64,000 nucleotides of DNA, from positions 29,337,401 through 29,401,400 of the forward strand of contig CM028326.1 in NCBI GenBank assembly GCA_016647705.1, in the 5' to 3' direction. This DNA comes from Eucommia ulmoides. Lineage: Eukaryota; Streptophyta; Magnoliopsida; Garryales; Eucommiaceae. Shown piece after piece: positions 25,695-63,235 of this stretch; the stretch's first letter is position 1; each line of letters begins with the position of its first letter. The notes beneath the pieces are model-generated. The model saw nothing but the letters and a program-made list of their open reading frames with translations. It was not told where the DNA came from and did not search any database. A program made the translations under genes and the position numbers.

Positions 25695-27125
25695 TGGTAG
25701 CGCGTAAAATATACGCCACTACTTACTCTCGCAAGTGTACGAGGTCAAAGTTTTAGAATAGTGGATTGCTTAAGATCGAGTATTGTGTCCACAGGGAAAG
25801 TGTGAATAATTGAGTACTGCAATTTACGTAGTCTCATGCTATCCTGACGATTCAATTTAATATTTAAATTAAACTAAGCTAAACTACAATTAGTGGGTTA
25901 ATCCTAACTAAGTTGATTAACTAGGGATTGATTTCCTTCACTTAATACATATTTGATTTTATTTAGTTAACAATAACAGAGTTTAGGTATCCGACAATGT
26001 CGGTTCGTAAACGCCTCTGCCACCTCTTCCGAGTGTAAGACGGGGGAATACGCGACTTTGTGTCAATGCCGAAGTCCCCCTCAACGTCTTAACGACCCTA
26101 GGCCAAGTGATTCTCTCCCCAACGTCATCGATTGCACAGTAACTAACGTCCTCTCGGGTCATTAGATCGTAACAATGTGTTTATCCTAGTCCGAATCCAG
26201 GATTATCTCTTTCGAGCGTCAAAACCTAGATTCTCAAATCCAACCCCAATACCTTAACAAGCATATTGAAGTTGTCATAAAATGAAAAACACAATCGAAT
26301 TTAAAAGTAAACAACCGTTAATGAAACATATATTAAACCAAACGAGTATTTACATAATTACATCGATCCATAGCTAATATTTATCTCATCTAACATGATC
26401 TTGGCCATTAGAACTACAAACCAAGAGGTATTCATTATCATTTACAATAAAACATGAAATTACAAAGAGAGAAAGAAAGAGAGAAAGATCAAATCTTAAA
26501 GTGGAGTGATCCACTGTCGCCAAAGACCGATCCACCGATGTTCCCTCTTCTCCGAATGATGAATATCTTCCCTAAGAATGGCCAAGGATCAATCTCCTAG
26601 GGTTAGGGACGTTCCATGCTCCAAGAAGTATTAAGGGAAGTGGGAGAATAGGTATTGATAAGCACAATGTTTCAAAATATATAAAAAATATCTATTTGTT
26701 GTGCAGAGGTCAGGGCCGCGGCGATGGGATCACGGCCACGACGGTGGGGGTAAGTTGGTTAGTTTCCATATATTTTACCGCCATGGTTGTGGACTTGCAC
26801 TGCGGTGGTAGACTCTCTGAATTTTCATCGCCGCAACGGTGGGTTTTTCGCCGCGACGGTGGGCCTTCATGCATTTTAGCCCTTTTCTGCAATCTCACCG
26901 CCGCGGTGCTGGCTTCCTTGCCACAGCGGTGGCTCTTGTGATTTTGAAACTTTGTTTCTTCGTCATTTCTTCACCATTTTCCCTCCGTTTTCGCTCTTTT
27001 ATCGCTTGTTTGTGTCCCTACACCTGAATTACATAAAAATTAACAAAAACACAATTAAATATAACTAATTCACTCGAAAACTATCAAATCCGATTTAGAA
27101 GTAGATATGTATTTTACACCTATCA
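25695..27125 (-). mobile_element. Solo LTR, Athila-type gypsy
   Basis: A 1431-base LTR reads on the minus strand from TGATAGGTGTAAAATAC to CGCGCTACCA and is flanked by a perfect duplication TTAAC (25690-25694, 27126-27130). Ends and interior (ACTCGCAAGTGTACGAGGTC, CACCTCTTCCGAGTGTAAGA) match the other Athila LTRs in the window. A palindrome-rich cluster with CCGCGRCGGTGG motifs lies at 26705-26935. Only one LTR remains, so the interior was lost, presumably by LTR-LTR recombination. Confidence 0.85.
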
Positions 27126-27130
27126 TTAAC

Positions 27131-28340
27131 CTTAATCCCGCAGGTCTAATTATATAGATTGATATCAAGCCCTCCAATGACTACTTTTCAAAAGATATAC
27201 CTATAAAAGACACTCTTAAACCGCATATAACATAATCATTTAATTCTAGGGTATTCCACATTAAAATAACTTTCTAAATCTCTCAAATAAACCCATAAAA
27301 TATTTCTCAATTAACAATCATAAAGATAGGAAGTAGTTAACTATTTAAATTGAGAGAATCTTGAATTATGTGGACCAAATTAAAAGGAATATATAAATAT
27401 ATATACTATATCTTCAATAGATTCAAATCCCCCAAATCTTTCCTTTGGAATTATAAAAAATGGCTAGTTTTTTACCAAGAAATCAAGTCCCTCGAAATCT
27501 CAATCGAAACAGTCAGTTGATCGATCCCTGTATTCAATTGACTGATTGTGGTTATAGGTACAACAACTTCACTAATTTTTACCGCAATACAATCTAATTT
27601 TGGAAATGCTAAAAATACAAAAGTTGCAGCTCTCTTTCTAAGTTTTTCCAATTCATCTTGAATTACATCAATCAGAGTTTATACAACAAAGTTATGGCCA
27701 AAATATGAATAGGTTCACAAGCCCAGTCGGTTAACCGAATTCCCATTCGGTTGACCGATCGATACAACCCCGAAACCAAGACAAAACGTAATACGCCCGT
27801 CAGTTGATCAATTCTCCTTGGTCGGTTAATCGATTGGTTTAGGGAGTTCTAGTTTTTCACCCTTAAGCCCATCGGTTGACCAATCACCTTTGGTCGGTTG
27901 ACCCATTGCTTCAAAAACTTGACATTTTGCTCCGAAAATCTTACTGTTTTAAACGATTGACTGATCCTTTCGAATCAGTTGACCTACTGATGTTGGTTGG
28001 CCAATTCTTCACCAATTTCTACTCCACAACTCAACGTTTGGTCCCGTTAACCGACTGTTTTTCTCGGTTAACTAAATTCCCTAAACTTCAACTTTAAACA
28101 TATTTTAAAATTAGATCAACTTTTATTTTTCAATTTCACATTGGAGCACATCTTTAATCACTAATTAAAATCCTAAAATTCATCAAATCAAACACCCAAA
28201 AATACAATTTATTAATTAGTGTCGTGTGTGATCCTAATCTGGGTTGCATTAAGAGTATAAGAGTAGTGAATTATTTTCACCTAATTGCTTCAGGATCTTC
28301 AATAATTTTTATTTCTTTTGTTGATCCTAATAAGGGTAAA
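27131..28340 (-). mobile_element. Second copia LTR remnant, right piece
   Basis: Continues the copia LTR beyond the solo Athila LTR. It carries a cluster of CGGTTGACCGATCG-type units (27490-28080) and the GTCGTGTGTGATCCTAATC motif found near the start of the other copies. The right boundary fades out near 28340. Confidence 0.6.
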
Positions 28341-28694
28341 ATGGTCAAACCATATATTTTTTTTTACTTTGAAAAAGGTTGAGCGCCTTTAGTAAAAAAA
28401 AAAAAAAAAGCCAGTGGGTGTTTGCTGAATTTTTAACTTAATTTTTCAGCTAACTTAATTAATTAAGTAATTTTAAATATATTTGTCAAACACACTTAAT
28501 TAATTAAGTGCTTAATCTACTTAGTTTTAAGTGCTTATTTTTTTAAAATCAAACATGTCCTAACTAAATATGATGTAAGAAATGATTTTCTCTATATAAA
28601 GTTATTTATGCCATTAAAATCCATTTCAAATACATTTAAAACCTAATATATTAAATATTAGAAGAAAAACTCCACAATGCAAGAAAATACAGTG
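28341..28694. other. AT-rich DNA with TTAATTAAGTGCTTA motifs
   Basis: GGGTGTTTGCTGAATTTTTA near 28424 and the inverse-like AAAATCAAACATGTCC near 28555 border a CTTAATTAATTAAG-rich block. This resembles the MITE candidate at 5073-5584. No gene seen. Confidence 0.35.
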
Positions 28695-29101
28695 TGTTGG
28701 CCCAATGATCTACCTAAGAGGGGAGGTGAATTTAGTAGTTATAAAAATTTAAGCAAATATTTATCTTCCAACACTTAAAAATTTAAATAATTAATTTAAT
28801 CCTAAATTAATTATTATCTTTATATGGCAGCGGATAAGTGTTATATAAACTAGGTACACACCCAAATAATAGAAAATAAATAAAGTAAAAATGTAGCATA
28901 CCACGATATATATCGATTTACCAAGGTACTCTTGACTAATCTAGTTTTTTGAGCCTCACGGAGAGTCCCACCCACTAAACTATTAAGATTCCTTTAAACA
29001 GGTAGGAACTAAACATTTACACAATAATTCTTTTCACAAACTTAGAATCAACCTTTACAATTTTCTTTTCTTAAGCTCAGGAATAACCTCATCTTTTCTT
29101 T

Positions 29102-29146
<45 letters not shown>

Positions 29147-31162
29147 GCTCAAGACTAACCTAATCATTTCACAAGCTAAGGATCAAACCTAATTATTTTA
29201 TACCTTAGGATAAGAATCAAACCTCACAAAAACTACTCCAAGTATCTTTTTCACCGGTAAAGGTGAAACTGTTACAATTCACACAAATTCAATTCTAATC
29301 AGGAAGAATTACGCCTATCTCTTTTCACGGGAAAAGAGTAACATAATCTTTTCATACTTCAAGAAAAAAATCAATCCTCAATCTCTTTACCAGAAGAGAT
29401 TTAAACTCAATTACCCCTGATTAGATATTTTCAATAATATCTAATCCGCACACAACTCACCAATTACAAAAATTGATAAGTTTTCCTACTCGGAACTTCT
29501 ACCACCTCAAATTAATTTAAACTCGATTAATGTCCCGATAAATACTAATGATAGAATTTTACGTGAGAAATTTAAAATCTGATTATAAAATAAATGGGTA
29601 GCACACAATTGAGCATGTAATCATATTATCACCAAAATCATTTTAAAATAATTTTTATGCACTTTAAAGTTAAAAAACAATTTCACAATATCTAAAAATC
29701 CAAGCAAGCAAAATAATATTTAATCACAACAAAGAATTAAAGATTGGAACAATCTCATCAAGATATCACCAAAAGAATAAAAATTGAATCACGACAAAAC
29801 TTAAATCGGTGACGCCAAAATTCACAACACTTATTCTCAAGATTTTTTTCTTAAGAAAATCTCACGATAATCGCTTAATATAATCTCAGAATGATAACTC
29901 TAAGAAAGCTTACGAACTCAAGGTTTTTAATAGAATGATAACTATCAGAAAGCTTACGAACAATTAGTTCTTGATTGATTGGGATATATTACAAGTGAAA
30001 AACGCATGTTTATAAATACTAATTTGAAACATGCCATTCAACGACTAGTTTCCACATGTCATAACATTTAATTGCTCATATAGACCCTATACATTTATAT
30101 GACTCAATTCTAGTTTAATTTACTTAATTATAACTTTCAAAACAATTCAATTTGGTCTCTCAAAATTTTTTCAAACTCAAATCGATAAGATAAGAAGTAT
30201 TAAAAAGACCAATTTGAGAGACACTTAAAATAAATGTATCATATTTTTAGGGATATCAAAATAACAACCATATATCTATTATATTATCAAATCCTTAGAA
30301 TATCTCTTAGATTTCAACCAAAAAACACTAGTAATGACTATTTTTTGATCAAATCCATGAAATCTTCAAATCCTGAAACAACACCATCGGTTGACCGATC
30401 AAAACTCACCAGTCGACTGATCGATTCAGGTTGTAACCCAAGCCAAAATTATTCTCCAGTCGATCGACTAATCCTCCATGTGTCGGTTGATCGATCAAAT
30501 TATGATGCTCTCTATATCATTTTTTGACCATGGTCTGTCGACCAATCATTGATGATCTGTCAATCGATTGATTTAGAGAGTTCAGGTATCTATCATAGGT
30601 TGACCGATCTCCCCTCGGTTGGTTGACCGATCGATCCAGAGACCATTCAATTTCTCAGCTACTTCCCTTCGATTGATCGATCCTCCTAGATCAGTTAACT
30701 GATCCTTGTTGGAACACTTCTTCCTTAATTAATTTTAACTCCAATCTTCGACCTTTTTGTCCCTTTTAACCGATGTCTTTTCTCGATTAACTTAATTGAT
30801 ACTATTAATCAATTTTAAACACTAATCTTTCTTAGATCAATATTTCTTCTTCAATTTCATATTGGAACAAATATGTTTAACTAATTAGGATCCTAATAAA
30901 AACACACATAAATATAAATTTATTTTATGTCGTGTGTGATCCTAATCGGGATACATTAATAGTAAAAATTAACCTGAGTTGTTTTCGTTTAGATTTATCA
31001 AAATCTTCAGTCTCTTAATGTCCAATTAAAAGTCTCTTAGCATCTTTAACAATTTCTTCATAATATCATCAATGAAACTTTTACACTGAAACACTCAAAC
31101 AACTCGTTAGTTCCACAAAAAATATCAATACTTAGTTGTCCATTAACATCTTAGGATCAACA
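28695..31162 (-). mobile_element. Solo LTR, copia (SIRE/Maximus-like)
   Basis: A 2468-base LTR starts TGTTGATCC and ends GGGCCAACA on the minus strand, flanked by CAGTG (28690-28694) and CAATG (31163-31167), a target duplication with one mismatch. It contains a T run of about 40 bases near 29105-29143 and a GTTGACC/GTCGAC cluster at 30385-30720. No coding sequence. Confidence 0.75.
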
Positions 31163-31167
31163 CAATG

Positions 31168-32972
31168 GAGAGCTCTATTGTTTCGCCATTTGAGCTTCAG
31201 TTTTAGTTTCAGTATTAAATTAAAATTTCAACCAACTTTAAGTACTTTGAGAATTAAAATTTCATTCAAAACATAATAATTTTCAACCAACCTCAAGTTG
31301 GGGTTTGTAAAATGTCATTTTGTACCCTTAAACTTTAAATAAGTTTCTAAATCATATCTCCTAAAATAAATTGAATGTCAATTGTTTAATATGGAGGGTA
31401 TAAATATCATCTAACATTAAATAATTTATATTTGTTGACTATTAATGTTTGATCATTAAAGTTAATGAAATTTTTAACTATTACTCTTAAATTAGAAATA
31501 TAGAAGGTGTAATTGCTAGCCAAAATAATAAAAGTAACGAAAAAAATTCAATGTTTAGACGGTCTTCGTTGTCTAAATGGCCTTTAGGATAGCTCAGAAC
31601 ATGTAATAAGCACTTGAAAACGGTCGGCTAAAAGTCAACACTTTCTTTTAACCAAAAAAGAGAAAAGGGAAATATTTTTCGTCCATTTGCTTGTGATTAT
31701 CCCAATTATAAAACACAGTACAAACACAACGATGTTATGCGTTGTCAAACAGCCATTGGTATTATTGTGCATGTGGACTGTGAGTGTGCTTTCTTTTCAC
31801 TAAATTATTGTTCAATCTTAGAACTAATTTTTCAAAGAGAAGCATGAGACACGAGCACCTACCCCAAAAGAATCGACTCACTTGTACCAAACTTCATCTT
31901 GGATTTTTCTTCTTTTTCATTTTCTTTAAATCTGAATTTAAAGAACAATTTATCCACGTTATTACATTATTAAAAAATTAATTAAAATCACCTAATAAAA
32001 AAATTACTCTTATAAATCTCTTATAGGAATCACAATTTTAGATAACTTTGATTTTATATTTAAATTTTATTTTTATGTAATATATTTTCAATTAATTAAT
32101 TTTTATTACTTTTAAGATCAAGGTTGTTATATCTTTTTTTAGTATTTAAATAGTACGATGCTAAATGTTTTAAATTTAAAAGTATTTTAAGAATTAAATA
32201 CTATTGATTTATGTAACACATTTTTCAGTTTTGCGAAATTTAATTTGAGTTTGATAGAAAACCTTTATGTTTTGAGATTTTGTTATTGTTTTAATGGTAA
32301 GAATATAATTGATTAAGATGACCGAGTAAAGAAATTCAAACAAAGAAAATTCAATTAAGAAATTAACATATATTCATTAATTACTAAAATTATCTCCTAG
32401 TTTGTCCACATAAATCTTCATTGAGAAGGAAAAGAATATTGTGAATAATCAGGAGGAAATTGAGGACTATCCAATTCACTAAGTTAGGCATGTAATTCGG
32501 TCAGCTAGTTATAACAAAAAAGATCTAAAATTGAATTTTAGTTGAAAATGGTTGATTGGATAACCCAAGAGGTCGATTGCTTTAGAAAGAAAATCAATAT
32601 ATTAATGACCGTACAAAAATAGTCGATCGGGTGACCCATTTGGTAGACTTCCCCAGCTAGTATCTCAAAGGATTAAAAACTGTACAAGTTCGATTGACTA
32701 AATTGAAACGGTCGGCCTACTTAATCAAGAAGTGATTCCTTTTGAACAAATGATCAAAAATAGCGACCGAATATGGATTGTAGTGAATCTTTTTAACTAG
32801 TGGATTCATTATTTTTTTACATTTTTACTCAAATCTTCAAACTGCTTTTCGTGGTTATTAATTTTAAATTATTTTTAAATATATCTAAATGATTTATGAT
32901 GAGAATGATTTTTAGAGAGTTTTTATGTGTGGGGTGTGTGCGTGTTTATCAATCATATTTTTAAGGAGTAAA
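31168..32972. other. Intergenic DNA with an old repeat fragment
   Basis: At about 31290-31530 the minus strand loosely resembles dispersed repeat family 1 (TTGGTGTAC-like start, TTAATGAAATTTTTAACTAT). Between 32480 and 32780 several GGTCGAYY/GGTGACCC motifs suggest a much-decayed copia LTR. No gene seen. Confidence 0.35.
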
Positions 32973-35735: not shown

Positions 35736-35737
35736 CC

Positions 35738-35938: not shown

Positions 35939-36218
35939 CTCAGTGCAAAGAACAATATAATTACATTCACTGTAGCAAGCGGTGAGTGTTTGCAAAGTCG
36001 GCAGGCTAAAGGGTTCAAAGATTTATCGTGTTTCTTGTTGTGATCATGTCTGTAGTTGGGACGATAGTCAGATACGGCTAAAGAGTTGGAAATAAAGAAG
36101 CTTGTATAAGACCTTGTAAACTTTTCGAGAATTTTACACATATTGATTATAAATTCCAATTCCACACAACCAAACATAGGACAACTAGGAAAAAAAAAAT
36201 ACTATTGTTCTTTTGCAG

Positions 36219-36939: not shown

Positions 36940-38550
36940 TGATAGGTGTGATCTACCTATATATTTCCAAACCAATTTTGTTAGTTTTAGAGTATTTTTT
37001 TATAGTATTTTATTACGTTTTAATTAGTTGTTATTCTTTTTGTATAAATTAGGTGTGTGGGGCAAAAATATAGAAAAATAGAGCGTAAACGATGAGATTG
37101 AACCAAGAACGGTAGAAAAACGAGCAAGGCGACAATATTCTGAAAGAAGCCCACCGCCGTGACGTCTAGACCTCCGCCGTGACGGCAAAAATGCAGAGAA
37201 TGACTTATTATTGCTGAACATCCACTGCCGCGGCTGTGAAAATGTAGGATGTCACTAAAATCCACCGATGTCTTCACCGCCTAGGCGATCAACCAATTGA
37301 CCTACTCACTGCCGCGGCGGTGACCTCTGCACAGACTTATGTTATTTTTTAGATATTTTTGAGATCTTTTCCCTATTTAAGCCATCATTCTCCCTAATTT
37401 TTGGCATCTCTTGGAATGCTACCACCCTTAGAACATATCTAGGGTGAGGTAGAGGAGTTTTAGAGGGAGAGCTCATATCCCAATGGAGAGAAAGACGGCG
37501 AAGCGATCGTTGAATGTTCTTAGTGGCTAAACTTCGGACGAGGCTAAGTTCTTCGATTTCTTCCCTTATTTCTTTAACTTAGAATTTTGTGAGCATGTTT
37601 AGCTCGTGCTTTCTTATAAATACTTTTATGGCCATTTGTTAAACGTAGATTGCATAGGGATTTAACAATATATTTATAAATATGTGATTCGTATGATTTC
37701 GATGTTGCGTTTAGGTTTGTTCTTCTTAGTTTGATTGTGTTTTTCGTATTGTTTGTTTATTATGCTTAGAATGATATTTGGAGAATACGGGGTTTGACTT
37801 TCGGAAGAGGTGACCCAGGATTCGAACTAGGGTAAACGAACGCCACGATCCAATAACCTGTGAGGGAGTTGGATTGTGTACAATAGATAACGTTGGGGTA
37901 AGACTCACGTGACGTAAGGTCATTAAGACGTTGAAGGGGATTTCTTCATTGACATGAAGTCGCGTATTCCCTCGTCTTACACTCGGGAGAGGTGGCGGGA
38001 GAGTTTACGAACTGAGATTGTCGATAGGGTAAACACAACGCGACGATCCAATAACCCGGTCGGGAGTTGGATTGTGTGAAATCAATGACGTCGGGGTGAG
38101 ACTCATGTGACCTAGGGTCGTTAAGACGTTGAGGGGGACTTATTCGTTGACACAAAGTCATGTATTCCCCCGTCTTACACTCGGGAGAGGTGGCGGGGGA
38201 GTTTACGAACTGAGATTGTCAAATAAGTCGAACACCGTAAACGGAAGTCAATCGAGATCGAACACGTATTTGTAAACCGAGTTAATCCCTAGACAATTCT
38301 TTCCCCTAAAAAATCTCATTATATTAGTATAGTTAATTTAGGTTATATTAGTATTAGTATTAATTAATTAAATACATTTGTTTTTAGCCTAAATAAAGTT
38401 AGGTCATGATAAATGCGGTACTCAATAATAACGACAACCAATCCCTGTGGATATGATACTCGATCTTAAAAGATCCATCATACTAAAACTTTGACCTCGT
38501 ACACTTGCGACTAGTCAATACGCGAGCGTGTAAAAGACGCTCGTCGTACA
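36940..38550 (+). mobile_element. Solo LTR, Athila-type gypsy
   Basis: A 1611-base LTR runs from TGATAGGTGTG to CGTCGTACA, bordered by a perfect ATGAG duplication (36935-36939, 38551-38555). Its order matches the other Athila LTRs: CTATATATTTCCAA near the start, a GC palindrome cluster (37140-37330, for example CACTGCCGCGGCGGTGA), a TATA-like CCCTATTTAAG near 37371, and the ACTCGGGAGAGGTGGCGG segment. That last segment occurs twice (about 37925-38045 and 38118-38225) as an internal duplication. Confidence 0.87.
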
Positions 38551-38821: not shown

Positions 38822-40142
38822 TGATAGATTGATTTTATCTATATATTTCCAAGTCGAATTTGGTAGTTTTCAAGTGTTCTTGTAATGTTTTAATTCATTT
38901 TTATTTGTTTTTTTTTTTTTAATATATATCTAAATCAGGTATTATGGGTGAAAACGGTTGAAATTCAAGCTTGTCGGTAGGACGTCAGTGAAGAAACGTG
39001 TGAAAAAAGAGCAAAAAATGGTTTATATATGCTACTTGCTGCAGCGCCCAAAGGCAAGGGCCACTGGCCCTTGCTCGCTGCAGCGAGCAATAACTAGTGG
39101 TTGTTTTGCCTACAACTCGTTACAACTAGCTTTTGTTCGTTGCAGTGCCCAAACACCAGTTGACACGCATTTTTCAGATATTTTTAGGATATTGTACTAT
39201 TCTATTTATATCCTTTCATTCCTACATTTCCACGAACGTTTTTTGGAGCCCTAGATCAGACCAAGCAGGAGGAACACATCATTAGAGAAGAAGAAACGAT
39301 CTTGGAGCGAATTTTGAGGAAGTGGAACCATCCACTTTACATATTTGACTTTCCTTTCTTGTTTCTCTCTTTTATTCTAAACTTTTGTTGGTTGTTTGAT
39401 GATGTATATCTCATGTGTAGTTGAATATTTGGTTATGGCCATATGTAGCTAAACGTTTATTATCTAGGGATTGATGTAGTTCACGAATATTATGTTTGAG
39501 TAAATCTTTGTTTCGTTAACGGTTGTTCATCCCTACTTGATCGTGTTTACCATTTTATTACTTCCATAGTATGCTTGTTATGATATTGTGGTTGATTTGA
39601 GAATACGGGATTTGACACTCGGGAGAGGTAACTCCGGATTCAGACTAGGGTTTAAAACACAACACAACGTTCTAATGTTTTGGGAGATTATTAGAACGTG
39701 TGCAATCCGTGAGGTTGAGGCAAGACTCATGTAATCATTTAGATGCTTGATAAGGATATCAGTGTTGATGTGGTTGCATATTCACTCACTTTACACTCGG
39801 GAGAGGTAGTGAGCGAGTTTTAGACACCTAGATTGTTGAATAGATTGATAACCGTTAATGTAAATTAGACTAAATCAAGCACATTTAAGTGAATGAAGTT
39901 AATACCTAAATAATCCATTCTCATAGAACTTATTCCAAGCATTTTAGTTTAATTAGTTTTCATATAGCGAACACCTTTCAAATCTTTAATCGTCTAGATA
40001 AAATTGAGTTATGTCAATTGTAGTACTTAGCTTGTTCTAACGATAAATCCCAATAGACGATATTCGATCATCGGATCACTTTATTACTTGTTGACCTCAT
40101 GCACTTGCAAGTAATTTAAAGCGCATTAAAATAATTGTAACA
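38822..40142 (+). repeat. 5' LTR of the large Athila element
   Basis: Begins TGATAGATTGATTTTATC, parallel to the solo LTR start at 36940, and ends near AATAATTGTAACA. A palindrome cluster built on GCTCGCTGCAGCGAGC lies at 39045-39170, with a TATA-like CTATTTATATCC near 39200. Confidence 0.8.
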
Positions 40143-40146
40143 AGTT

Positions 40147-40168
40147 TTTGCCGCCATTGCTTGGGATT
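40147..40168 (+). other. Athila primer-binding site
   Basis: TTTTTGCCGCCATTGCTTGG lies just after the LTR and has the TTGGCGCCGTTGCC form used by Athila elements, with a few changes. Confidence 0.6.
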
Positions 40169-40479
40169 TTCAGTTAGTAATTAAGTTGATATTACTACAA
40201 AGTCGCTCAATATTGATTTAGATACTCTTTTGTTTCATTAATTTTTGTTTAATCATTTTCATTAGTTGTGGTGACTGATAGTGTATGCAACTTAGCTGTA
40301 GTTTGGAATTCCTTGCTCTTGATCTAGAAATTGAACGTACATTAAGGAGGCTAAGGAGAGAAATGAGAAGCCAAGCTCGAGAAATGGCCGACGGTGGTGA
40401 TGACCATGTACTATGACAACCGTCGGTGCCTCAAGCGCTACCACAACAACCATCAGAACATGAAGTTCAAAAACAGTTT

Positions 40480-41690
40480 ACTATAGACCTATTATGTTTG
40501 ACAACTATTCAGGGATCCGGAGGCAGCCGATCCAAGCCAATAACTTTGAGTTGAAACCCGCCTTGATCAACGTGGTTCAACAGAACCAATATGGAGGGAA
40601 TCTTCATGAGGATCCAAATATCCATTTAGCAACATTCTTGGAGATATGTGACACCATGAAGATCAATGGAGTTGTGGAGGATGTCATTCGGCTAAGGTTA
40701 TTCCCATTCTCCCTTCGAGACAGAGCCAAGGATTGGTTTCAATCCGTCCAACCGGGGAGTATCTCAACTTGGGAGGAACTAGCTCAATGGTTCCTCACTA
40801 AGTTCTTTCCCCCATCGAAGAAGTCACAGTTGGGATGGGAGATTACTCAATTTCGCTAAAGGGATTATGAACCACTCTTCGAGGCATGGGAGCGATTCAA
40901 GGATTTATTGAGAAAATGCCCCCAACAAGGGTATCAAGATTGGTTTAAAACCCAAATTTTCTATAATGGATTGGGTGGACTAAAGAGAACAATTGTGGAC
41001 GCTGTATCTAGAGGTTCTCTGTTATCCAAAACTCCGAACGAGGCTCAAGTGCTCTTGGAGGAGATGGCGGCAAATAACTATCAATGGCCCAGTGAGCGAA
41101 ATATGGGATGAAAGGTAGCCTCTATTCATGAGGCCAATCCTCTTGCTACTTGTCAGCCTAAGTGTCGAAACTCACGGAACAGCTCGTTGCTTTCTCTACC
41201 AGAGATATCTTTTCAAGTCGAGAAACGGAAAATGTGGTAAGTACTTCACAACCGGGGGTTGATAGTGAGTTTGAGGAATAGCACTTCGCCAACAATCGGG
41301 CCTACACCTTTAGGCCTGCCAACAACATCCCAACTCATTACTACCCCGGGATTCGGAATCACAAAAATTTCTCTTATGCGAATAACCAGAATACTTTGCG
41401 ACCTCCTCCCGGATACTCTTCGCAATCACAAGGATTTTAGCCGCATTAGCAAAGTCGTCCTTTGCAACAACAACCAGTGGAAAGAAATAAGCCACCATTG
41501 GAAGATTTGCTCGGCTCGTTTATGAAAGAGATACAAAACATTATGCGAGAAACGCGGCATAATCATCTCAACAAGCATGAGACGCAGCTTGACAACATTA
41601 AGACAACGTGCACCAATACAAATTCAATCGTAAAGTCGCTGGAAACTCAAATTGGTCAGTTCGCTAGTGCTATAAAAGGGTAAACCTCAG
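40480..41690 (+). pseudogene. Athila gag region (fossil)
   Basis: The stretch from about 40500 has the strongly conserved Athila Gag core: IRRQPIQANNFELKP, HLATFLEICDTMKINGV, RLRLFPFSLRDRAKDWFQS and ELAQWFLTKFFPPSK. A later segment near 41640 (KSLETQIGQFASAIKG) matches the Gag C-terminal helix. It encodes the particle protein in intact relatives; here it is broken. Confidence 0.88.
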
Positions 41691-42149
41691 GGAAGTTTCC
41701 AAGTGATACGAAAACTAACCCAAGGGATGGCAAAGCCATCACCTTGAGGAGCGAAAAGGAAATTGAAGCAACAATACCAAAGGAGGATGAGCTAAATGAG
41801 ATAATTGATGTTGAAAAAGAACCCATTCTGGATGAGGAGAAGAAGGAAGCTCAAAGGGTAAATCTGGGTTCCATATCTTTTCCGACCAATCAACCAATGA
41901 TCACTCTACCTTTTCCATATCCACAATGGTTTCAAAAGAAGAAATTGGATTCTCAATTTGCAAAATTTCTTAAAATTTTCAAGAAAATCCATATCAATAT
42001 ACCGTTTGCCGATGCACTAGAGAAAATACCCAATTATGGGAAATTCTTGAAGGACATAATGACCAAGAAGAAGAAATTGGAAGAATATGAGGCCGTCAAG
42101 CTCACAGAGGAATGTAGTGAAATCTTTCAACGAAAGTTGCGTTAAAAGT

Positions 42150-42470
42150 TAAAAGATCCCAAAAGTTTCACTATTCCGTGCACGATAGGAAAATCTCATT
42201 TTGATAAGGTGATTTGCGATCTTGGAGTAAGTATCAATCTCATGTCGTCATCCGTTTTTCGGAAATTGGGGCTTGGAGATGCAAAGCCCACTACTATTTC
42301 TCTAAAAATGACGGATCGTTCATTAACCTATCTGAAAGGAATCATTGAAGATGTGCTTGTACAGGTGGACAAATTCATCTTTTCGGTGGATTTTGTCGTG
42401 TTGGAGATGGAGGAAGACTGATAGATTCCAATTATATTTGGGAGTCTTTTCTCACATCCAGGAAGGCATT
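42150..42470 (+). pseudogene. Athila protease region (fossil)
   Basis: ICDLGVSINLMSSSVFRKLG is the Athila-type aspartic-protease active-site region (normally CDLGASINLMPLS), followed by the typical KPTTISLKMTDRSLTYLKGI stretch. Part of the fossil. Confidence 0.8.
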
Positions 42471-42919
42471 GATTGATGTTCATAATGAGAACTTGACTTT
42501 AAGGGTCAATGACAACGAAGTGAAGTTCAACATTTTTAATACAATGAGGTTTCTGGAAGAGTGTCCAACTTTCAATCGAGAGGAAGTGGCAGACTTGTGC
42601 ATTAGGGAGTTCTTTTATGAAAATTACGTCCTATCTCTCGAAGCTGTTCCTAAAGAAATAGTGAATTTGGTTTAAATGGAGACCCTTGATAAAGAAGATA
42701 GTTAAAAAAATATCTCAAATCCATCTCATGGTGGGTTGATTCTCAAGCGATTACTGGATCACCTTCAGTATATATTCTTGGGGGAGAACTCTACCGAGCT
42801 GGTCATTATTTCATCGTCTTTGACTCAAGAAGAAGAATCAAAACTTCTCATTATCCTGAACACAAGTTCGCATTCGCGTGGTTTATTTTCGACATAAAGG
42901 GAATAAGACCGACTATATG

Positions 42920-44260
42920 CATGCATAAAATTATGATGGAGGACTTATTTAAGCCCTCAATTGAGTATCAAAGAAGGCTAAACCCTGTGATGAAGGAGGT
43001 GGTCCATGCCAAAGTGTTAAAGTTGTTGCATGCCGGAATTATCTATGCGATATCAGACAGTGAGTTGGTGAACCCGATTCAAGTGGTTCCGAAGAAAGAT
43101 GGTATGACTGTTGTGAAAAACGAGAGGAATGATCTAATTCTCACATAAAACATCATGGGATGGAGAGTGTGCATTGGCTATAGAAAGTTAAACATGATCT
43201 CTTTCTTCTCCCGTTCATCGACCAAATGTTGGATCGTCTCTCCGGTTATGACCATTATTGATTTCTTGATGGATATTCAGGCTATAATCAAATAGTCATT
43301 CGACCAAAAGATCAAGAAAAGACAACATTCACTTGCCCATCTGACACTTTTGCATACCATCGTATGCCGTTTGGTTTATGCAATGCTCCGATAACTTTTC
43401 AATGGTGTATGATGGCGATTTTTTTTGACATGGTGGAAGATATAATGAAAGTGTTTTTGGATGATTTCTCAGTCTTCAGTTCATCCTTTGACCATTGCCT
43501 CTACAATCTATCACTTGTTCTCAACCGATGTGAAGAGAAAAAGTTAGTTTTAAATTGGGAGAAGTGTTATTTCATGGTCAAGGAGGGAATCCTCTTAGAC
43601 CATTGGGTCTCTTCCAAGGGGCTTGAGGTAGATCGGGCAAAGAATGAGACAATCTGGAAACTTCCCCCACCGATCAATGTAAATAGAGTAAGAAGTTTCC
43701 TAGGCCACACCGGCTTCTACCGAAGATTCATCAAAGACTTTTCGAAAACGGTAAAGCCATTGTGCCATTTGCTTGAAAATGACTTCCTATTCATATTTTA
43801 TGATTCTTGTAGGGGAGCGTTTAATGCCAGGAATGAGAAATTGATCTCGGCTTCGATTATAGTCGCACCGGATTGGAATGAGCCATTTGAGATCATGTGT
43901 GACGTGAGTGATTATTCAGTTGGAGTTGTTTTAGGCCAACGCAAGGAGAAAATTTTTCGGTCAATATACTATGCAAGCAAAATTCTCAATGATGCATATG
44001 AGAATTACACCACTACGAAAAATGAGATGTTGGTGGTGGTCTTTGCTTGTGATAAGTTCCGTTCATATATTATAGGGTCCAGGGTGATCATCTATATGGA
44101 CTATGCCACCATCCAATACTTATTTGCAAAGAAGGACTCTAAGCCTTATCTAATCCGATGGATTCTCTTGCTTCAGGAATTTGATGTTGAGATTCGGAAC
44201 AAGAAGGGGAGTGAAAATGTAGTAGCTGATCATCTCTCACAGCTTGTGTTAGAAGATGTT
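42920..44260 (+). pseudogene. Athila reverse transcriptase-RNase H region (fossil)
   Basis: Visible RT landmarks are a VVPKKDGMTVV segment near 43085, MPFGLCNAPITFQWCMM near 43364 and the catalytic FLDDFSVF near 43456. The LGHTGFYRRFIKDFSK connection follows, then RNase H with EIMCDVSDYSVGVVLGQ and YTTTKNEMLVVVFA. Order and wording fit Athila Pol. Broken copy. Confidence 0.87.
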
Positions 44261-44479
44261 GGTGATGATTCTTGTATCACAGAAATTTTCCCGAATGAGC
44301 AATTATTCAATATCGAAGTTAAACTTTGGTGGTTCGCAGATATAATCAATTATTTCACATGCAAGATGTTGCCCCCAGACCTATCTAGTGCCCAAAGGAA
44401 GAAATTCCTATTTGATGTGAAATATTATATGTGGGATAACCCTATGTTGTTTAAGAAATGCGCCAATCAAGTCATTCGG

Positions 44480-45253
44480 CGATGTGTTCCAAAAGCGAAA
44501 ATTGCATGCATTCTATATCATTGCCACTCATCACCGTGTGGAGGTAATTTTGGTGCAACACGAACAGCTACTAAGGTGCTTCAATTAGGTTTTTACTAGT
44601 CGACTTTTTTCCATGACTCATATACTTTTGTAAAAACCTGTGATCAATGCCAGAAGGTCAACAACATCCCGAGGTGACATAAGTTGCCCTTAACATCCAT
44701 TCTTGAGTTGGAACTCTTTGACGTTTGGGGAATTGATTTCATGGGACCGTTTTCTCTGTCCTTTGGTCAGGAGTATATCTTGCTGGTGGTGGACTATGTG
44801 TCAAAATGGGTAGTGGCTGTGGCCACGCCGATCAACGATGCTAAAGTGGTTCTAAAATTTCTTCAAAAGAACATAATGACAAGGTTCATAACTCCTCTAG
44901 CCATCATTAGCGATGAAAGAAACCTAATTCTGCAACAAAATTTTCAATACTCTACTGACAAAGTATGGAGTCCGGCACAAAATGGCGCTTCCTTACCATC
45001 CCCAACCAAACGGCCAAGTTGAAGTGTCCAATCAAGAAATCAAACAGATCTTGGAGAAGACGGTTCACTCCAACCATGAAACTAGACGATGTATTATGGG
45101 CATACCGCATGGCTTTTAAAACATCGATCAGAATGTCTATATCGGTTGGTATTCAGGAAAGCGTGCCATTTTCTGGTTAAATTGGAGCACTGTGGCTATT
45201 GGGCGATAAATAAGCTTAATTTTGATCTCAATGCTTTAGGGAAACAACGTCTC
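44480..45253 (+). pseudogene. Athila integrase region, left part (fossil)
   Basis: The zinc-site region (YHCHSSPCGGNFGATRTATK, then CDQCQK) and core motif FDVWGIDFMGPF are visible, as is YILLVVDYVSKWV. The chromovirus LTR begins within this region at 45259, after the target duplication CTACA. Confidence 0.82.
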
Positions 45254-54469: not shown

Positions 54470-54474
54470 CTACA

Positions 54475-55549: not shown

Positions 55550-55554
55550 GTGAT

Positions 55555-56435
55555 TGGTAGCGAGTGAATACGTCACTACTTTCACCGCAAGTGTACGAGT
55601 CAAGTTTTAGTAGAGTGGGAAGAGTAAGGGTTGTCGTATCCATAGGGATTGGTGTAGATTATCGTTAAGTACCGTAATGGTCATAACCTAACTTTATTTA
55701 GGTGATAGAAATTTAGTTTTTATAATAAAATATACTAATACTAAGTTAATTAAACTAATTATTCTAATATACTAGTATGACGCTTAAGGAAAATTATTGC
55801 CTAGGGATTAACTTCGTCCACTTAAACGTGTTCATTTCAATTTAGTTTACATTAATGACGTTCATCTTATCTGATAATCTCGGTATCGAAATCTCATTCA
55901 CTATCTCTCCCGAGCGTAAAGTGAATGAATATGTGACTTTACATCAACGCCGACGTCCCCCTCGAGCATCTATACGACACTTGGTCACATGAGTTTTTCC
56001 CCAACGTCATGGATTACACACTTTCTAACTCTCTCCTGGGTTATTAGATCGTCGCATTGTGTTTAAACTCTAGTCCGAATCCAGGGTTACCTCTCCTGAG
56101 TGTCAAATCCCGTATTCTTAGTATATCATAACAAGCATATAAACATTGCAAAATGGTAAACACAATCAGATAAACACGAACAACCATTAATGAAACTTAG
56201 ATTTTATATAAACAACATTTTCATGGAGTTAGTTGTTCCCTAGACAATATATGTTTAGCTATACATGACCCTAACCAAATATGTAACTAGAAACAAGCTG
56301 AAAATATACAAACATTCAACCAAATCTAAGAGAGAAAGAGAGAAATGAGGAGACGAGCTGTTATCTGAAGATCCATCGCTAAAACCGCTCTGAGAACGCT
56401 TTCTCATTCTTCGCGTTGTGATCTTGTATTGGTCG
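55555..56435 (-). repeat. 3' LTR of the short Athila relative (partial)
   Basis: Starts TGGTAGCGAGTGAATACG and aligns with 61698-62566 up to CTTGTATTGGTCG, where the copia LTR begins. The remainder of this LTR was not found on the other side of the copia insertion. Confidence 0.8.
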
Positions 56436-58545
56436 TGTTGATCCTAAGATTTTGATTAACAATTAAGTATTAATGTTTTGGTGGAACTAATGTTTAATTG
56501 AGTGCTTCAGAGATTTAAAGTTCTAATGATGAAGACGTCAAATTGAATTGATGCTAAAAGAAGATATCAAGATGATGAAGAGGAATTAAGAGTTTAAAGA
56601 AATTAGAGAAAACATCCCAGGTAAATCCTAACTCTTAATATCCCATTTAGGAACACACACGTGGCACAAAATGAATTTTATCTTTTATGTGTGTTTTGGT
56701 TAAGTGTAATTAATTACTCCTATGTGAATTGAAAAGAAATAATATTGAATGACTAAAATGAAATATAAGAATATAAGTGGAGCTTATTTAAGAGAGAAAA
56801 TGGATAAAGGGGTGATATCGTAAAAGAAAGTGAGTAAAAAACAAGATCAGAGAAAAGATCCAAAAGAGAGCAGTTGATTGAGGAGTCGACTGGACAGTGG
56901 TGGCTGAACTTTCTGAATCGAAGAGTCGACCGATAGGTCAACTGATGAAAATAACCAAACTCTTTGAATCGAAGAGTCGACCGATAGGTCGATTGGTAAA
57001 GTAGTACTAAACTCTTTAAATCTATGAGTCGACTGGGCAGTCGACCTATGCACGCCGCGGTGATGGTTTGGCTGCAAGCTGAATTGGGCAGTCGACTGGG
57101 TAGTCGACCGAATGCGCTGTTTTAGGATATGGTTTGATCCGAGATTATATCCAAAAGTAACCGTTTTTTGTTAGGATTTAAGAGAGATTTAAGCGATATT
57201 CTCTATATTTAAGATATGGTTCATATACTAATTAAATCTTTTTAATATGGTTCATTAAATATTAATATTTCTCAATTTGGTACTTGAAATATTTTCTATA
57301 CTTATTTATTTTGATTAAGAAAAACTTTGGGGGGGTTTAATTGAGAGATTCAAAAGATGTTTTTAAGTGAAATTGAACATAAATGAAGTCCTTATATTAT
57401 AAGGGGTCTATAAGAGCTTTTTATTGTCATGACACTTGTAAACTCGCCATTAGAAGGCTGATTACATGTTCCTTTAAATAGACCTGTGAATTTTATTAGA
57501 AGAAAAAATAATTTTAAGAGTTAATCATTCTATATCATTTTGAGAGAGGTTTTATAAGAGTCAGTATTTTTTGTTATTATGAGTTATTCTAAAAGTGATT
57601 ATGATAATCAATTGCGATCTATTCTTGTTGATACTGGATTTGAAGCTATATTGTTCTAATAATTATTTCTATGGATTCCAGGTGAGATCTTTCCATATTG
57701 TTTATTATTTATTATTTTATATTTTGAAAATTGATCTTAGAAATTATTTTTGATTTTTTGAAGAAAATATTATTTCAAACAATTTCTTGAATCTGATTAC
57801 GTGCTCCAATTTGCTACTCATATTCTTGTTAAAATCAGATTTCTGTATCTCACATATTTTTATCACTAGTTGGGATATTAATTGAGTTTTTATATATCTG
57901 GGGTGGTAGAAGCTCCAAGTGAGATTTACTACTTATCAATTTTTTATTGGTGAGTTGTGATGAGTTAAATATCATTGGGGATATTTAATCAAGAGTAGCT
58001 GGGTTTCAGTCTCTTCCTGTAAAGAGATTGAGGTATTAATTCTTCCTGAATCAAATTAGTGAGAGTGATTCATAAAGGTTCCATCCTTACCTACTAAAAG
58101 GATAGTTGGAGTGTTTGTGAGAGATTTTGATTCTTGAGCCTTAGTGTTAAAAAGAATTAGGTTATTCTTTAACCTGTAAAAAGTAGAGGTTCTTCCTTAG
58201 CTTGAGAAAAGAATATTGTAAACGTTGATTCTGAGCCTGTAAAAGAATCGGTGTGTGGGTTTGGTTCCTACCTTTAAAGAGATCTTGATTTTAGTGGGTG
58301 CTACCTTCGTGGAGCTCGGGGGACTGGATTAGCCAAGAGTAGCTTAGTGAACCAATATAAATCTTTTGTGTACTGTATTATTATTTTGCTACTTTTGTTG
58401 TTTGGGTGTACACTTAGATTGATCATATTATTCCACTGTGTTATAAAGATAATAATTAATTTAGGTTTAAAATTAATTATTTAATTTCTTAAGTTTTATT
58501 CTGATTATTTTTTAATTACCCAATTCACCCCCCTCTTGGGCATTG
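56436..58545 (+). mobile_element. Copia (SIRE/Maximus-like) LTR, plus orientation
   Basis: Starts TGTTGATCCTAAG and ends in the CAATTCACCCCCCTCTTGG region characteristic of these LTR ends, at about 58545. It is the same family as 8493-25108 and 28695-31162 but reads in the opposite direction. A GTCGAC cluster occupies 56865-57115. There is no matching GGTCG duplication on the right, so the right side seems to have been lost together with adjoining Athila sequence. Confidence 0.72.
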
Positions 58546-59323: not shown

Positions 59324-61043
59324 TGGTAGCACGTGAAATGACACGCCGCTACTTACACTCGCAAGTATACGAGGTCTGAGTTTTAGTATAGTGTGATCGT
59401 TAAGATCGGGTTATCGTATCCACAGGGATTGTTGTCGTTACTATCGAATACCGCATTTGTTGTGACCTAAGTTTATCTAGGCGAAAAACAAATGTATTTA
59501 ATTAATTAAACTAATACTAATATATCCTAAATTAACTACACTATTATGTTAATATGTTTTAGGGTGAAGAATTGCATAGGGATTAACGTGTGTACAAATA
59601 CGTGTTCGATTCCAATTTAGTTACGTTTACGTTGTTCGACTTATTTGACAATCTCGGTACGTAAACTCCACCGCCACCTCTTCCGAGTGTAAGATGAGGG
59701 AATACATGATTTCGAGTCAACGGAGAAGTCCCCCTCAATGTCTTAATGACCCTAGGTCACGTGAGTCTCGCCCAGCGTTATTGATTGCACACAATCCAAC
59801 TCCTTCCCGTGTTATTGGATTGTCGCGTTGTATATACTCTATGGACAATCTCCGTTCTAAAACTCTCTCGCCACCTCTTTCGAGTGTAAGACGAGTGATA
59901 TAACGCAAGTTCGAGTCAACGAAGAGGTCCCCCTCAATGTCTTTACGACCCTAGGTAGCGTGTGTCTAGCCCCATGTCATCGATTGTCTATGATTCAAAC
60001 CCCGACCGGGTTATAGAATCTTGGCGTTTGTTTATCCTAATCCGAATCCGGGATTTTGGCAAAACCCTGTATTCTCCATTTATCAATCCAAGCATAATAA
60101 ACAAACAATACAATAAATATAATCAAACTATGAAGAACAATCATAAACAAAACACCGAAATCATCCAAACAACGTATTTATAAATTATATGTTAATCCCT
60201 ACTACAATCCATATTTAACTCGGGGCCATAGCCGCATATATAAGAAAATAATGAGCTAAACATTCTCACATACTCCTAAGATAAAGAAATAAGGAAAAAC
60301 GATCGAAGAACTTAGCCTCGTTCGAAGATAAACCGCTAAGAACGCTCAACAATCGATTCGCCGTCTTCTCCACTTCGGGATGCGAGCTCCACACCTAAAA
60401 TTCCTAACCCTTGGCTTAAATATAGCCTAAGGGGCTAAAAAATACAAGATATGGAAGAGAGTTCCGGCCAAGGGGGAGGAGATGGGATATTTATAGCAAA
60501 AATATCCTAAAACTATCTCAAGACTATGCAGGGAAAATCTACCTAGGCGGTGGAAATTGCGCCTAGGTGGAGTAAGGTCAGTTTGGTCTGATCGCCTAGG
60601 CGGTGAAGTAGGTGGTGGACTGGGAGAACATTCTGTTGGATTTTCGCCTAGGCAGTAGAATTTCGGCCTAGGCGAGCGGCTGTTAGTAGCCCATCTACGT
60701 CCTCTGCTGGATTTCCTCCTAGGCGATAGAATCTTCACCTAGGCGGTCGTCCGTTAGTAACATTTTACTCTTCTCTACATTTTCACCGCTTAGGCGGTGG
60801 TCTAGACGCCTAAGTGGTAGGCCTGTTTCATCTTTTAGCCTCCGAGCTTGTTTATCCACCGTAACTTCGAACCGCTTTGGTTCGATCTCATCATTTTAAC
60901 TCCAGTTTCCTATCTTTTTGCCCCACACACCTGAGTTATACAAAAAGTATGAAAACTAATTAAAACATAATAAAATACTATATAAACATATTCGAAAACT
61001 AACAAATTCGGATTGGAAATAGATAGGTTTTTCACACCTATCA
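59324..61043 (-). mobile_element. Solo LTR, Athila-type gypsy
   Basis: A 1720-base LTR reads on the minus strand from TGATAGGTGTGAAAAAC to CGTGCTACCA, with a perfect CTTGT duplication (59319-59323, 61044-61048). A palindrome cluster built on CCGCCTAGGCGG lies at 60540-60830. It is followed in the direction of transcription by GCTATAAATATCCC (about 60498-60485). The TCTTCCGAGTGTAAGA block is duplicated at about 59650-59770 and 59840-59960. Confidence 0.88.
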
Positions 61044-61048
61044 CTTGT

Positions 61049-61697
61049 GTATCTCTAAGAGCCACCGTGTCTGACTCAGCCTTAACATAGCAGATAAGCT
61101 GACCAATTTACGTCTGAAGAAACGTTATGGTCTCATCAATTTTGGTGCAGACCGTCTCAATATTATCAAGACGATCCTCATGCTCATTGAGTTGATCATT
61201 CGTTCCCCTCCAAAAAGCATGAGTCTCCCCCACAATAGTGGCAAACACTTTTTCTAGTGCAAAGGAAGACTCTACATCTTAGACCGGGGTGTCAATCCAT
61301 AGTGCCGTAGTATTGAAACAATCCCCCATGCTTTGGTGACTTGGTGAATAATTCCAACTGTGACAAACAAAGGCCACCAATTCCTCCCACCCACATTCTG
61401 GTTGTGACTTGTAACCCGTCGAGGAAATTCAGAAGTTGACACTCCCTCGGGAAACCATGATTCGGGAATCAGAATAGCAATTCCTTGTATCGATCCCAAG
61501 TATAATAAAACAACTTAGAATCCCATTGAAAGAAATGCATAAGCACTTGTTAATCTAACATCGTCAAGTATTCTACATGAAAAACAAAAAACTACAAACA
61601 AAAAATTATAAACAAAATAAATGCCTAAATTAAAATTAAGTTACTCACAATATGAACAACAATCTAATAACCAATCTCCGGCAATGGTGCCAAGAAC
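61049..61697 (-). mobile_element. Primer-binding site and gag remnant of the short Athila relative
   Basis: Just inside the 61698 LTR is the Athila primer-binding site. Further along the minus strand a segment reads NEHEDRLDNIETVCTKIDET, the coiled Gag C-terminal region of Athila. Only fragments remain. Confidence 0.6.
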
Positions 61698-63235
61698 TAG
61701 GTAGCGCGTGAATACGTTGCTACTTTCACTGCAAGTGTATGAGTCATATTTTAGTAGAGTAGGAAGAGTAAGGGTTATCGTATCCACAGGAATTGGTGTA
61801 GATTATCGTTGAGTACCGTAATTTTCATAATCTAACTTTATTTAGGCGATAAAAATGTAGTTTTTATAATAAAATATACTAATACTAAGTTAATTAAACT
61901 AATTATACTATTATACTAGTATGATGTTTAACGGAAATTATTGCCTAGAGATTAACTTCGTCCACTTAAACGTGTTTGTTCCAATCTAATTTACATTAAC
62001 GACGTTCATCCTATCCAATAATCTCGGTATCGAAATCTCATTCACTACTTCTCCCGAGTGTAAAGTGAATGAATATGTGACTTTGCGTCCCTCTCAAGCA
62101 TTTATACGATACTTGGTCACATGAGTCTTGCCCCAACATCACGGATTGCACACTTTCTAACTCCCTCCTGAGTTATTAGATTATCGTGTTGTATTTAAAC
62201 CCTAGTCCAAATCCGTGGTTACCTCTCCTGAGTGTTAAACTCCGTATTCTCAGTATATCATAACAAGCATATAAACATGGCAAAATGGTAAACACAATCG
62301 GATAAACACGAACAACCATTAACAAAACATAGATTTTATATAAACAACGTTTTCATGGAGTCAATCGCTCCCTAGACAATATATGTTTAGCTATACATGG
62401 ACCTAACCAAATATACATCTAGAAATGAGCTAAACATATACAAACATTCAACCAAATCTAAGAGAAAAAGAGAAAAACGCGAAAACTAGCCATTATCCGA
62501 AGATCCTTCGCTAAAATCGCTCCGAGAACTCTTCCTCCTTCGCGTTGTGATCTTCTATTGGTCGAATAGCCTTGGAGCTCTTAAGACTCCCGAAAACATC
62601 CACCTCGTGTTTGGTGAGAAAGAGGCGATATTTATAGGATTATAAATATATCAAAATATCCTAAAAATATCTTAACTATCTGTAGAGTGACCATTGTAGT
62701 GGTGGGTTCACTGCTGCAGTGGTGGGGATGGCGATAGGCTACTTTTTGATTGAGCACTGCAATGGTGGGCGATTAGAAACTTAGGGAACTCTTTGTATTT
62801 TGACCGCTGGAACTGTGGGTTCACTGTTGCAGCGGTGGGGAGTTTAGCCAACTCTCTACATTTTTACCTCTGTAGCGGTGGATGCAAATTTTTGAACTTT
62901 GTCTTTTTTCTCTTTTCTCACTGTTCTTCCACTGTTCTTGCTCTGATATGATTGTTTAAAGACCCACCGCTGCAGCGGTGGGGAGTTCAACCAACTCTTT
63001 GTATTTTCATCGTTATAGCGGTAGATGCAGGCTTCTGAACTTCGTCTTTTTGCTCTTTTCCCACTGTTCTTACTCTGATATGATTGTTTAAAGACCGTTT
63101 TCATCCTTTTTCGACCCAAACACCTAATTTGTAATAGGAAGAATAAAAACGTATTAAAACATAAAAAAACGCTATAAAAATACTCGAAAACTACCAAAAT
63201 TGGCTTGGGAATAAATAGATAAATGACACCTATCA
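61698..63235 (-). repeat. 5' LTR of the short Athila relative
   Basis: A 1.54 kb LTR reads on the minus strand from TGATAGGTGTCATTTATC to the CGCGCTACC end. A cluster built on CCACCGCTGCAGCGGTGG occupies 62690-63025, and two TATA-like ATAAATATC/TATAAAT sequences lie at about 62630-62655. Confidence 0.85.

Follow-up and report, generated by a model that had tools for sequence, protein, structure and literature searches.

Arrays of short palindromes with shared arms and a variable four-base core upstream of a TATA-like box in Athila-type LTRs of Eucommia ulmoides

Results

Palindrome cassettes in five related long terminal repeats

The window analyzed here is a stretch of 64,000 nucleotides from the 947-Mb genome of Eucommia ulmoides (G000:C2:29337401-29401400) that contains five related long terminal repeats (LTRs), assigned below to Athila-type retrotransposons, each of which carries a cluster of short palindromes that we call a cassette (Table 1). 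The original prediction had placed five such clusters in the window, and all five are present. They had been taken for five different palindromes; four of them, at 26.7, 37.1, 60.5 and 62.7 kb, turned out to be one motif, CACCGC-N4-GCGGTG, with common arms and differing cores (CGCG, CTAG or TGCA, together with CpG-decay products), and the 39-kb cassette alone has other arms, its family combining GCTCGC-TGCA-GCGAGC with AAGGGCCACTGGCCCTT-like sites. A position upstream of a TATA-like box had also been proposed for the clusters, and a TATA-like stretch indeed follows at least those at 37, 39, 60.5 and 62.7 kb. As for the flanking LTR sequence, said to remain alignable, BLAST among the five LTRs aligned the sequence downstream of the cassette in every one of them. 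At the LTR start, 100-130 bases matched among four, and the 26-kb LTR had no upstream match.

Table 1. Cassettes, LTRs and associated features of the window
Feature	Coordinates	Strand	Details
Decayed cassette, CACCGC-N4-GCGGTG type	26705..26935	-	six fuzzy sites, at most 3 arm mismatches
Cassette, five slots	37152..37322	+	37152-37167, 37172-37187, 37223-37238, 37275-37290 (core CTAG), 37307-37322 (core CGCG)
Cassette, other arms (GCTCGC-TGCA-GCGAGC)	39045..39170	+	AAGGGCCACTGGCCCTT at 39056-39072; 20-bp perfect palindrome TTGCTCGCTGCAGCGAGCAA at 39071-39090
Cassette, CTAG-type cores	60540..60830	-	centre spacings 20, 33, 52, 20, 51, 20, 51, 20 (read by hand)
Cassette, TGCA cores	62690..63025	-	includes a 20-bp perfect palindrome, 62963-62982
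TATA-like box	62627..62639	-	directly downstream of the 62690-63025 cassette
Solo LTR	25695..27125	-	starts TGATAGGTGT; perfect 5-bp target duplication GTTAA on either side
Solo LTR	36940..38550	+	TGATAGGTGT...TACA; perfect 5-bp target duplication ATGAG on either side
LTR, related family	38822..40147	+	starts TGATAGATTG; followed by a PBS-like sequence
Solo LTR	59324..61043	-	perfect 5-bp target duplication ACAAG; sits between both LTRs of the 63-kb element
5' LTR, Athila-type element	61693..63235	-	partner is the 3' LTR at 55556-56435
Truncated 3' LTR without cassette	55556..56435	-	partner of 61693-63235; followed by ATCAC
PBS-like, tRNA-Asp type	40149..40166	+	adjoins the 38822-40147 LTR
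PBS-like, tRNA-Asp type	61675..61692	-	adjoins the 61693-63235 LTR
Broken gag, protease, RT/RNaseH and integrase pieces, Ty3/gypsy	40464..45022	+	Pfam PF03732, PF13650 (protease; below the curated cut-off), PF00078, PF17919, PF17917, PF00665 (integrase; just below the cut-off)

PBS, primer-binding site; RT, reverse transcriptase.

The motif in the whole genome

The decisive evidence that the palindrome clusters are real comes from the whole genome, in which the pattern CACCGCNNNNGCGGTG (CACCGC-N4-GCGGTG) occurs at 11,873 places and its reversed control at 8. The window copies are decayed, and a generic count of even-centred palindromes compared with 2000 dinucleotide shuffles was significant for the 37140-37330 cassette (12/2000) and non-significant for those at 26.7 kb (1173), 39.0 kb (730), 60.5 kb (305) and 62.7 kb (640 of 2000). 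Thus the proposed chance test is passed genome-wide against the reversed pattern, and in the generic form by a single window copy of the five. Applied to more members of the families, the generic count reached p<=0.05 in 16 of 28 for the 37-kb family, the window copy excluded (mean 2.43 against 0.47 in shuffles, both flanks together giving 0.07 against 0.28), in 7 of 17 copies of the 62-kb family and in 1 of 15 of the 39-kb family, three second-family copies with short cassette segments having been dropped. Single copies are therefore weak evidence.

A scan allowing longer arms and loops gave a score of at least 2 to 26 of 638 scanning windows of 300 b, and for none of the 26 did more than 3 of 200 shuffles do as well, uncorrected for the number of scanning windows. 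It flags the cassettes at 37, 39, 60.5 and 62.7 kb, not that at 26.7 kb, and also 2.4-2.8, 10.3-10.9, 22.5-23.1, 32.7-33.2 and 56.8-57.3 kb, which had not been listed before. A few GC palindromes above shuffles were seen at 2401-2800 and 32701-33200. Arrays of GTCGAC or GGTTGACCGA-like palindromes lie at 27500-27950, 30350-30720 and 56880-57130; they resemble the grape Sirevirus motif CGGTCGACCG given in the passages of PMC2829016.

The spacer between the arms is strict in length, mostly four bases. With a spacer of N0-3 the arms occur at 2,685 places, compared with 23 for the reversed pattern, and the spacer is a single base in 49 of the 50 that were listed; with N5-12 the genome holds no enrichment (138 versus 646 reversed). 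The sites with a spacer of 0-3 may have arisen by slippage from CGCG and TGCA cores. The pattern GCTCGCNNNNGCGAGC was found at 48 places, against 2 for its reversed form, with the core TGCA in 23 of the 48.

Next to these counts, we fetched 20 regions of our own choice, which represent 24 of the first 33 listed CACCGCNNNNGCGGTG places. In 14 of the 20, TGATAGGTGT with no more than 1 mismatch marks an LTR start 201-408 b upstream of a perfect site, in the right orientation; the other 6 gave no such match. The cores tend to be self-complementary: this holds for 19 of the first 50 listed CACCGCNNNNGCGGTG places (CTAG 6, TGCA 5, CGCG 4, TATA 2, CATG 2), about 3 being expected for random four-mers, and for 146 of 284 oriented sites, compared with 61 expected if the two core halves were independent (18 of the 20 regions used, L027 and L038 dropped). 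Half-switched cores among the 284 sites are CGAG in 9 cases and CTCG in none.

Divergence of the cassette and conservation of its arms

The family samples fetched for alignment consist of 20 of 41 rows (the window excluded), 30 of 40 (one being the window's own LTR) and 15 of 40. Distances were computed on 30 of 31 rows, giving 435 pairs, after L073 was dropped, its upstream part being unalignable. As anticipated, turnover is faster in the cassette than in either flank: the p-distance is 0.284 in the cassette, 0.164 in the upstream flank and 0.192 in the downstream flank, with gap fractions of 0.200, 0.050 and 0.023, and the cassette is the more diverged part in 417 of the 435 pairs relative to the upstream flank and in 375 relative to the downstream one. 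For the second family (210 pairs), p-distance and gap fraction are 0.301 and 0.389 in the cassette, 0.254 and 0.085 upstream, and 0.154 and 0.009 downstream, so that the excess of its cassette over the upstream flank consists mostly of gaps.

In the first family, five slots stand in register, separated by slot-specific linkers. Column frequencies, taken from 29 of 31 rows (L073 and W60 dropped), give a mean major-base frequency of 0.902 at non-CpG arm positions (n=40) and of 0.791 in linkers (n=89, p=0.0014); the upstream flank, with 0.910, is conserved alike (p=0.058). Variation is found at CpG arm positions (0.790) and in the cores (0.758). The idea that position and symmetry are kept while the sequence turns over thus needs to be narrowed: place and dyad arms are kept, and cores, linkers and copy number vary, but the palindrome does not turn over as a whole. 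We also looked for compensatory arm changes, testing 6 pairs in each of 3 sets and in the pooled set. Of these 24 tests one gave p=0.0498 (pair 3-12 in one family), and no pooled test reached significance. Arm changes are not clearly compensated, so that decay after insertion appears to be neutral in most copies, and symmetry would be kept in the lineages that replicate.

Switching of cores between slots

Core patterns were classed by eye in 30 rows. In 13 of them, the readable slots 1, 2, 3 and 5 hold CG-type cores and slot 4 holds CTAG or CTAA, three of these rows having an odd slot 1 (CCAG, AGCT, GGCG). Rows L051, L054, L059, L063 and L067 have CG-type cores in the readable slots 1, 2 and 5, apart from an odd slot 1 in L051. 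Their slot 3 holds CTAG or CTAA, and their slot 4 holds CGAG, a half-switched core that the aligned family has in this slot only. CTAG fills all slots except slot 4 (TGTA or TGCG) in L046 and L065, and CTAG or a one-step derivative fills all readable slots in L049, L058, L062, L070, L074 and W60; L047, L052, L066 and L069 fall outside all of these classes. Switches between CGCG and CTAG therefore span several slots in the same rows. Placed on a tree of the flanks, computed without branch-support values, slots 1, 2 and 5 follow the tree with 2, 2 and 3 changes, and slots 3 and 4, which do not follow it, change 8 and 9 times, near the shuffled-label means of 10.3 and 8.2. The pattern of slots 3 and 4 fits mosaicism by template switching.

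Spacing between sites

Adjacent sites fall into distance classes, 153 of 181 spacings being 19-21, 32-33, 41-43, 50-53, 63-64 or 70-74 bp. The 181 spacings give R=0.73 at 10.4-10.5 bp, a value reached by 0 of 5000 jittered sets, and when linkers were collapsed by similarity the remaining 52 still give R=0.55 (0/5000). Perfect sites agree with this: among the first 50 listed pairs 47-77 bp apart, 49 are at 48-54, 62-63 or 70-73 bp and one is at 77 bp, with none at 55-61 or 64-69 bp. In 31 of these 50 the spacing stays at 48-54 bp although the linkers form 8 groups at a similarity cut of 0.65, just above the similarity of shuffled linkers (95% at 0.63). Among the first 50 listed pairs 16-46 bp apart (R=0.61), 39 are at 19-20 bp, and the other 11 at 21, 32, 33 (2), 34, 39, 41, 43 (3) and 46 bp. 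A preference for multiples of about 10.5 bp is thus suggestive and not decisive, because the fit of the four modal classes alone gives P=0.023 to 0.055, as detailed below, and some longer spacings hold a decayed site.

Assignment of the elements and a Tat-type neighbour

The name Athila rests on the type of the primer-binding site (PBS) and on general features of that lineage. The window contains only two matches to a tRNA-Asp-type PBS (at most 4 mismatches to an 18-mer), at 40149 (+) and 61675 (-), and both adjoin an LTR, which we take to be an Athila feature. Next to the 39-kb LTR, the broken coding pieces run in the order gag, protease, reverse transcriptase (RT), RNaseH, integrase, as expected of Athila. 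This order is common to other Ty3/gypsy lineages. The remaining four LTRs were assigned by their similarity to the 39-kb LTR. The target duplications GTTAA, ATGAG and ACAAG, and ATCAC at both outer ends of the element bounded by the LTRs at 61693-63235 and 55556-56435, agree with LTR insertion, a feature common to other LTR elements and hence unspecific. Among the 120 relatives of the RT piece listed out of 7938 matches, the named ones are plant proteins except one bacterial record, and none is named Athila.

The window holds in addition an element with two RNaseH-type domains and LTRs near 10.2-12.5 and 22.4-24.7 kb, which we call Tat-type. Both of its LTRs carry a cassette just upstream of a TATA-like box (10480-10720 and 22690-22930), with units that differ between the two LTRs: GGTCGC-ACGT-GCGACC, GTCGC-TACA-GCGAC, GGCCGC-ATGT-GCGGCC and GGTGCACCGAAATTCGGTGCACC. 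The corresponding pattern GGTCGCNNNNGCGACC occurs at 1,825 places in the genome, against 13 for its reversed form, and 29 of the first 50 listed places have self-complementary cores. CGC-N4-GCG is the part common to all types with an N4 core. Both Tat-type LTRs also contain tandem repeats of about 120 b (10977-11878 and 23202-24103).

Further repeats were observed around the Athila-type LTRs. The downstream part of the 36940-38550 solo LTR includes a tandem duplication at 37839-38220, with two 184-b copies 198 b apart and 86% alike. A pair of direct repeats, 45259-46816 and 51654-53537, lies 6.4-6.7 kb apart, is 92-99% alike, includes GC-rich stretches and is possibly another LTR pair. Just outside the 5' LTR end at 63235, a frame at 63676-63999 matches Pfam PF20167 (Transposase_32, putative plant transposon protein).

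Discussion

A candidate array of protein-binding sites

We hold with moderate confidence that the cassette is a U3 enhancer array of dyad sites for a dimeric DNA-binding protein in Athila-type LTRs. Several copies of the dyad, CACCGC-N4-GCGGTG or, in the related family, GCTCGC-N4-GCGAGC, just upstream of the TATA box would be occupied by a dimeric binder, most likely a host transcription factor, which would switch on transcription of the retrotransposon, and the core may tune which protein binds or how strongly it binds. Turnover would proceed through the gain and loss of whole repeat units and through switches of template among RNAs packaged together; once inserted, a copy would lose its CpGs by neutral decay. 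A site for a protein dimer appears favoured because of the strict dyad geometry, the conserved arms, the length-conserved linkers and the TATA-proximal place. LOB-domain proteins, for which passages of PMC10118128 report GCGGCG and a discrimination of palindromes by dimers, were considered as the binder and set aside as a lead only, as they gave no match to CACCGC-N4-GCGGTG.

Several observations weigh against such an array. When CpG positions are included, the conservation of the arms does not exceed that of linkers (p=0.21) and falls below that of the upstream flank (p=4e-5). The TGCA family taken alone has no excess of matching core halves (40 versus 39.1), and one lineage keeps non-palindromic cores, CTAA together with TTAG being found, by eye, in 22 of 32 pairs spaced 19 bp; core symmetry is therefore not essential everywhere. 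Linkers of the same length class may be of common descent, and the four modal classes alone fit 10.5 bp with P=0.023, or with P=0.055 if the period is free between 10 and 11. The Tat-type sites, spaced 21, 23 and 25 bp, lie off the 10.5-bp grid. Finally, the cassettes fold better than shuffles as RNA, a result that bears on the first alternative.

In this alternative, which we consider unlikely, the palindromes would act as U3 RNA hairpins of the 3' LTR, either in RNA processing or dimerization or by being diced to small RNAs, as proposed for maize Sireviruses, in which passages of PMC5311732 and PMC10760457 report an excess of small RNAs over palindrome clusters. The two cassettes that we folded, 37140-37330 and 62690-63025, gave z -4.24 (0/200) and z -3.34 (0/100) relative to dinucleotide shuffles, and the pairs of some lineages form a 16-bp stem with a 3-base loop, but better folding is expected of any GC palindrome. 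A hairpin loop would be expected to tolerate 5-8 bases, whereas the spacer is strictly of 4 bases (or 1) and longer ones are not in excess; the helical spacing classes also speak against RNA hairpins. Arm changes on the sense strand do not have the C>T excess that would go with them (C>T 152 versus G>A 183), in a test that has little power because copies decay neutrally. As a separate observation on these pairs, 32 of 50 listed ones (e.g. G000:C1:6356555-6356589) are quasi-palindromes 19 bp apart, and in 22 of the 32 the partners are reverse complements (CTAA/TTAG, 3-base linker), which makes a 35-bp hairpin-like inverted repeat.

From sequence alone, selection and a spreading mechanism are inseparable, and the cassette could also be a by-product of mutation, an explanation to which we give rather little credence: in a minisatellite-like array, tandem duplication, template switching and hairpin-templated repair of imperfect palindromes would spread one core to adjacent slots, without selection. 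The gap fractions of both families, which reflect gain and loss of units, the presence of CGAG without CTCG among half-switched cores, the poor tracking of the flank tree by slots 3 and 4, and the lack of clearly compensated arm changes all agree with it. Such a process fits poorly with linkers that remain slot-specific while cores switch, with non-CpG arm positions conserved like the flanks, and with the same architecture built on other arms in the Tat-type LTR. The least probable alternative, by analogy with VANC in VANDAL, is that a protein encoded or recruited by each lineage would bind its own core and remove methylation, as lineage-specific motifs changing over several units together (as for VANC targets, in passages of PMC5735166) and the methylation differences among LTRs of sunflower Athila clades (passages of PMC12844716) might suggest, but the coding pieces scanned, all of them from broken elements, showed no DNA-binding regulator encoded by the element.

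Returning to the enhancer array of dyad sites, a doubtful extension is that the core serves as an address: in each Athila lineage the common arms would suit a shared dimeric fold, and a core switched jointly in several slots would recruit another paralogue or an element's own anti-silencing protein, so that the lineage evades a repressor or small RNAs that fit its former core. Arrays of self-complementary sites would then have arisen by convergence in Ty1/copia, Athila and Tat elements. If the core does set protein specificity, the cassette would be a record of a regulatory arms race.

Comparison with known systems

Tandem or palindromic boxes in U3 are also carried by other LTR elements; these boxes have few copies, and we know of no fixed-arm, variable-core system among them. 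The original prediction held that no described system behaves in this way, which is wrong, because a closely similar arrangement has been published for Ty1/copia Sireviruses. As described in the passages of Bousios et al. 2010 (PMC2829016), Sirevirus LTRs carry palindromic repeated motifs (RM) clustered upstream of the TATA box with a consensus for each element, for example CACCGGACTGTCCGGTG and AGCGGTASTACCGCT, and these arrays are called Sirevirus specific. The Athila-type cassettes likewise consist of many CG-rich short dyad palindromes that cluster at this place in the LTR and have a consensus of their own in each element. They differ in that the RM belong to Ty1/copia, have a CGG-CCG signature and are found in extra copies before env, whereas the present arrays have arms CACCGC/GCGGTG (CCG...CGG in order) around an N4 core and occur in Ty3/gypsy elements, Ty3-type coding pieces lying beside the 39-kb LTR. 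The maize Sirevirus motif CACCGGACNNNGTCCGGTG has 0 exact matches in the genome. Maize Sireviruses (Bousios et al. 2016; passages of PMC5311732 and PMC10760457) also have a palindrome-rich regulatory cis region in the LTR, which is highly variable in sequence and predicted to be strongly structured, and small RNAs have been mapped on it, unlike the present arrays, known from sequence alone.

Two other systems share part of the behaviour. In the passages of Hosaka et al. 2017 (PMC5735166), the VANC targets of VANDAL elements are subfamily-specific tandem motifs that are gained, lost and changed together, as are the motifs found here in tandem arrays specific to subfamilies; they differ in residing in DNA transposons, in having a non-palindromic 9-base motif and in that their cognate protein is known and tested. 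Box I of Tnt1, as cited in PMC2829016, is repeated in U3 and differs between subfamilies. Among the passages of retrotransposon and Athila literature consulted (PMC2829016, PMC11302176, PMC5738225, PMC11963269, PMC12046899, PMC4977677, PMC12477314), palindrome arrays in LTRs are described only in PMC2829016; the passages of PMC4977677 report no correlation between palindromes and the targets of DCL3 RNA-directed DNA methylation (DCL3-RdDM).

Compared with these systems, the Athila-type and Tat-type (Ty3/gypsy) hosts, the fixed arms around a four-base core and the in-register switching of cores are likely to be new. Our results suggest that palindrome arrays in LTR promoters are no Sirevirus speciality, since a single genome has them in Ty3/gypsy elements of both Athila type and Tat type. 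With 11,873 exact sites, in-register slots and a variable core of four bases, they make a countable system for measuring template switching, the turnover of binding sites and the escape of elements from silencing.

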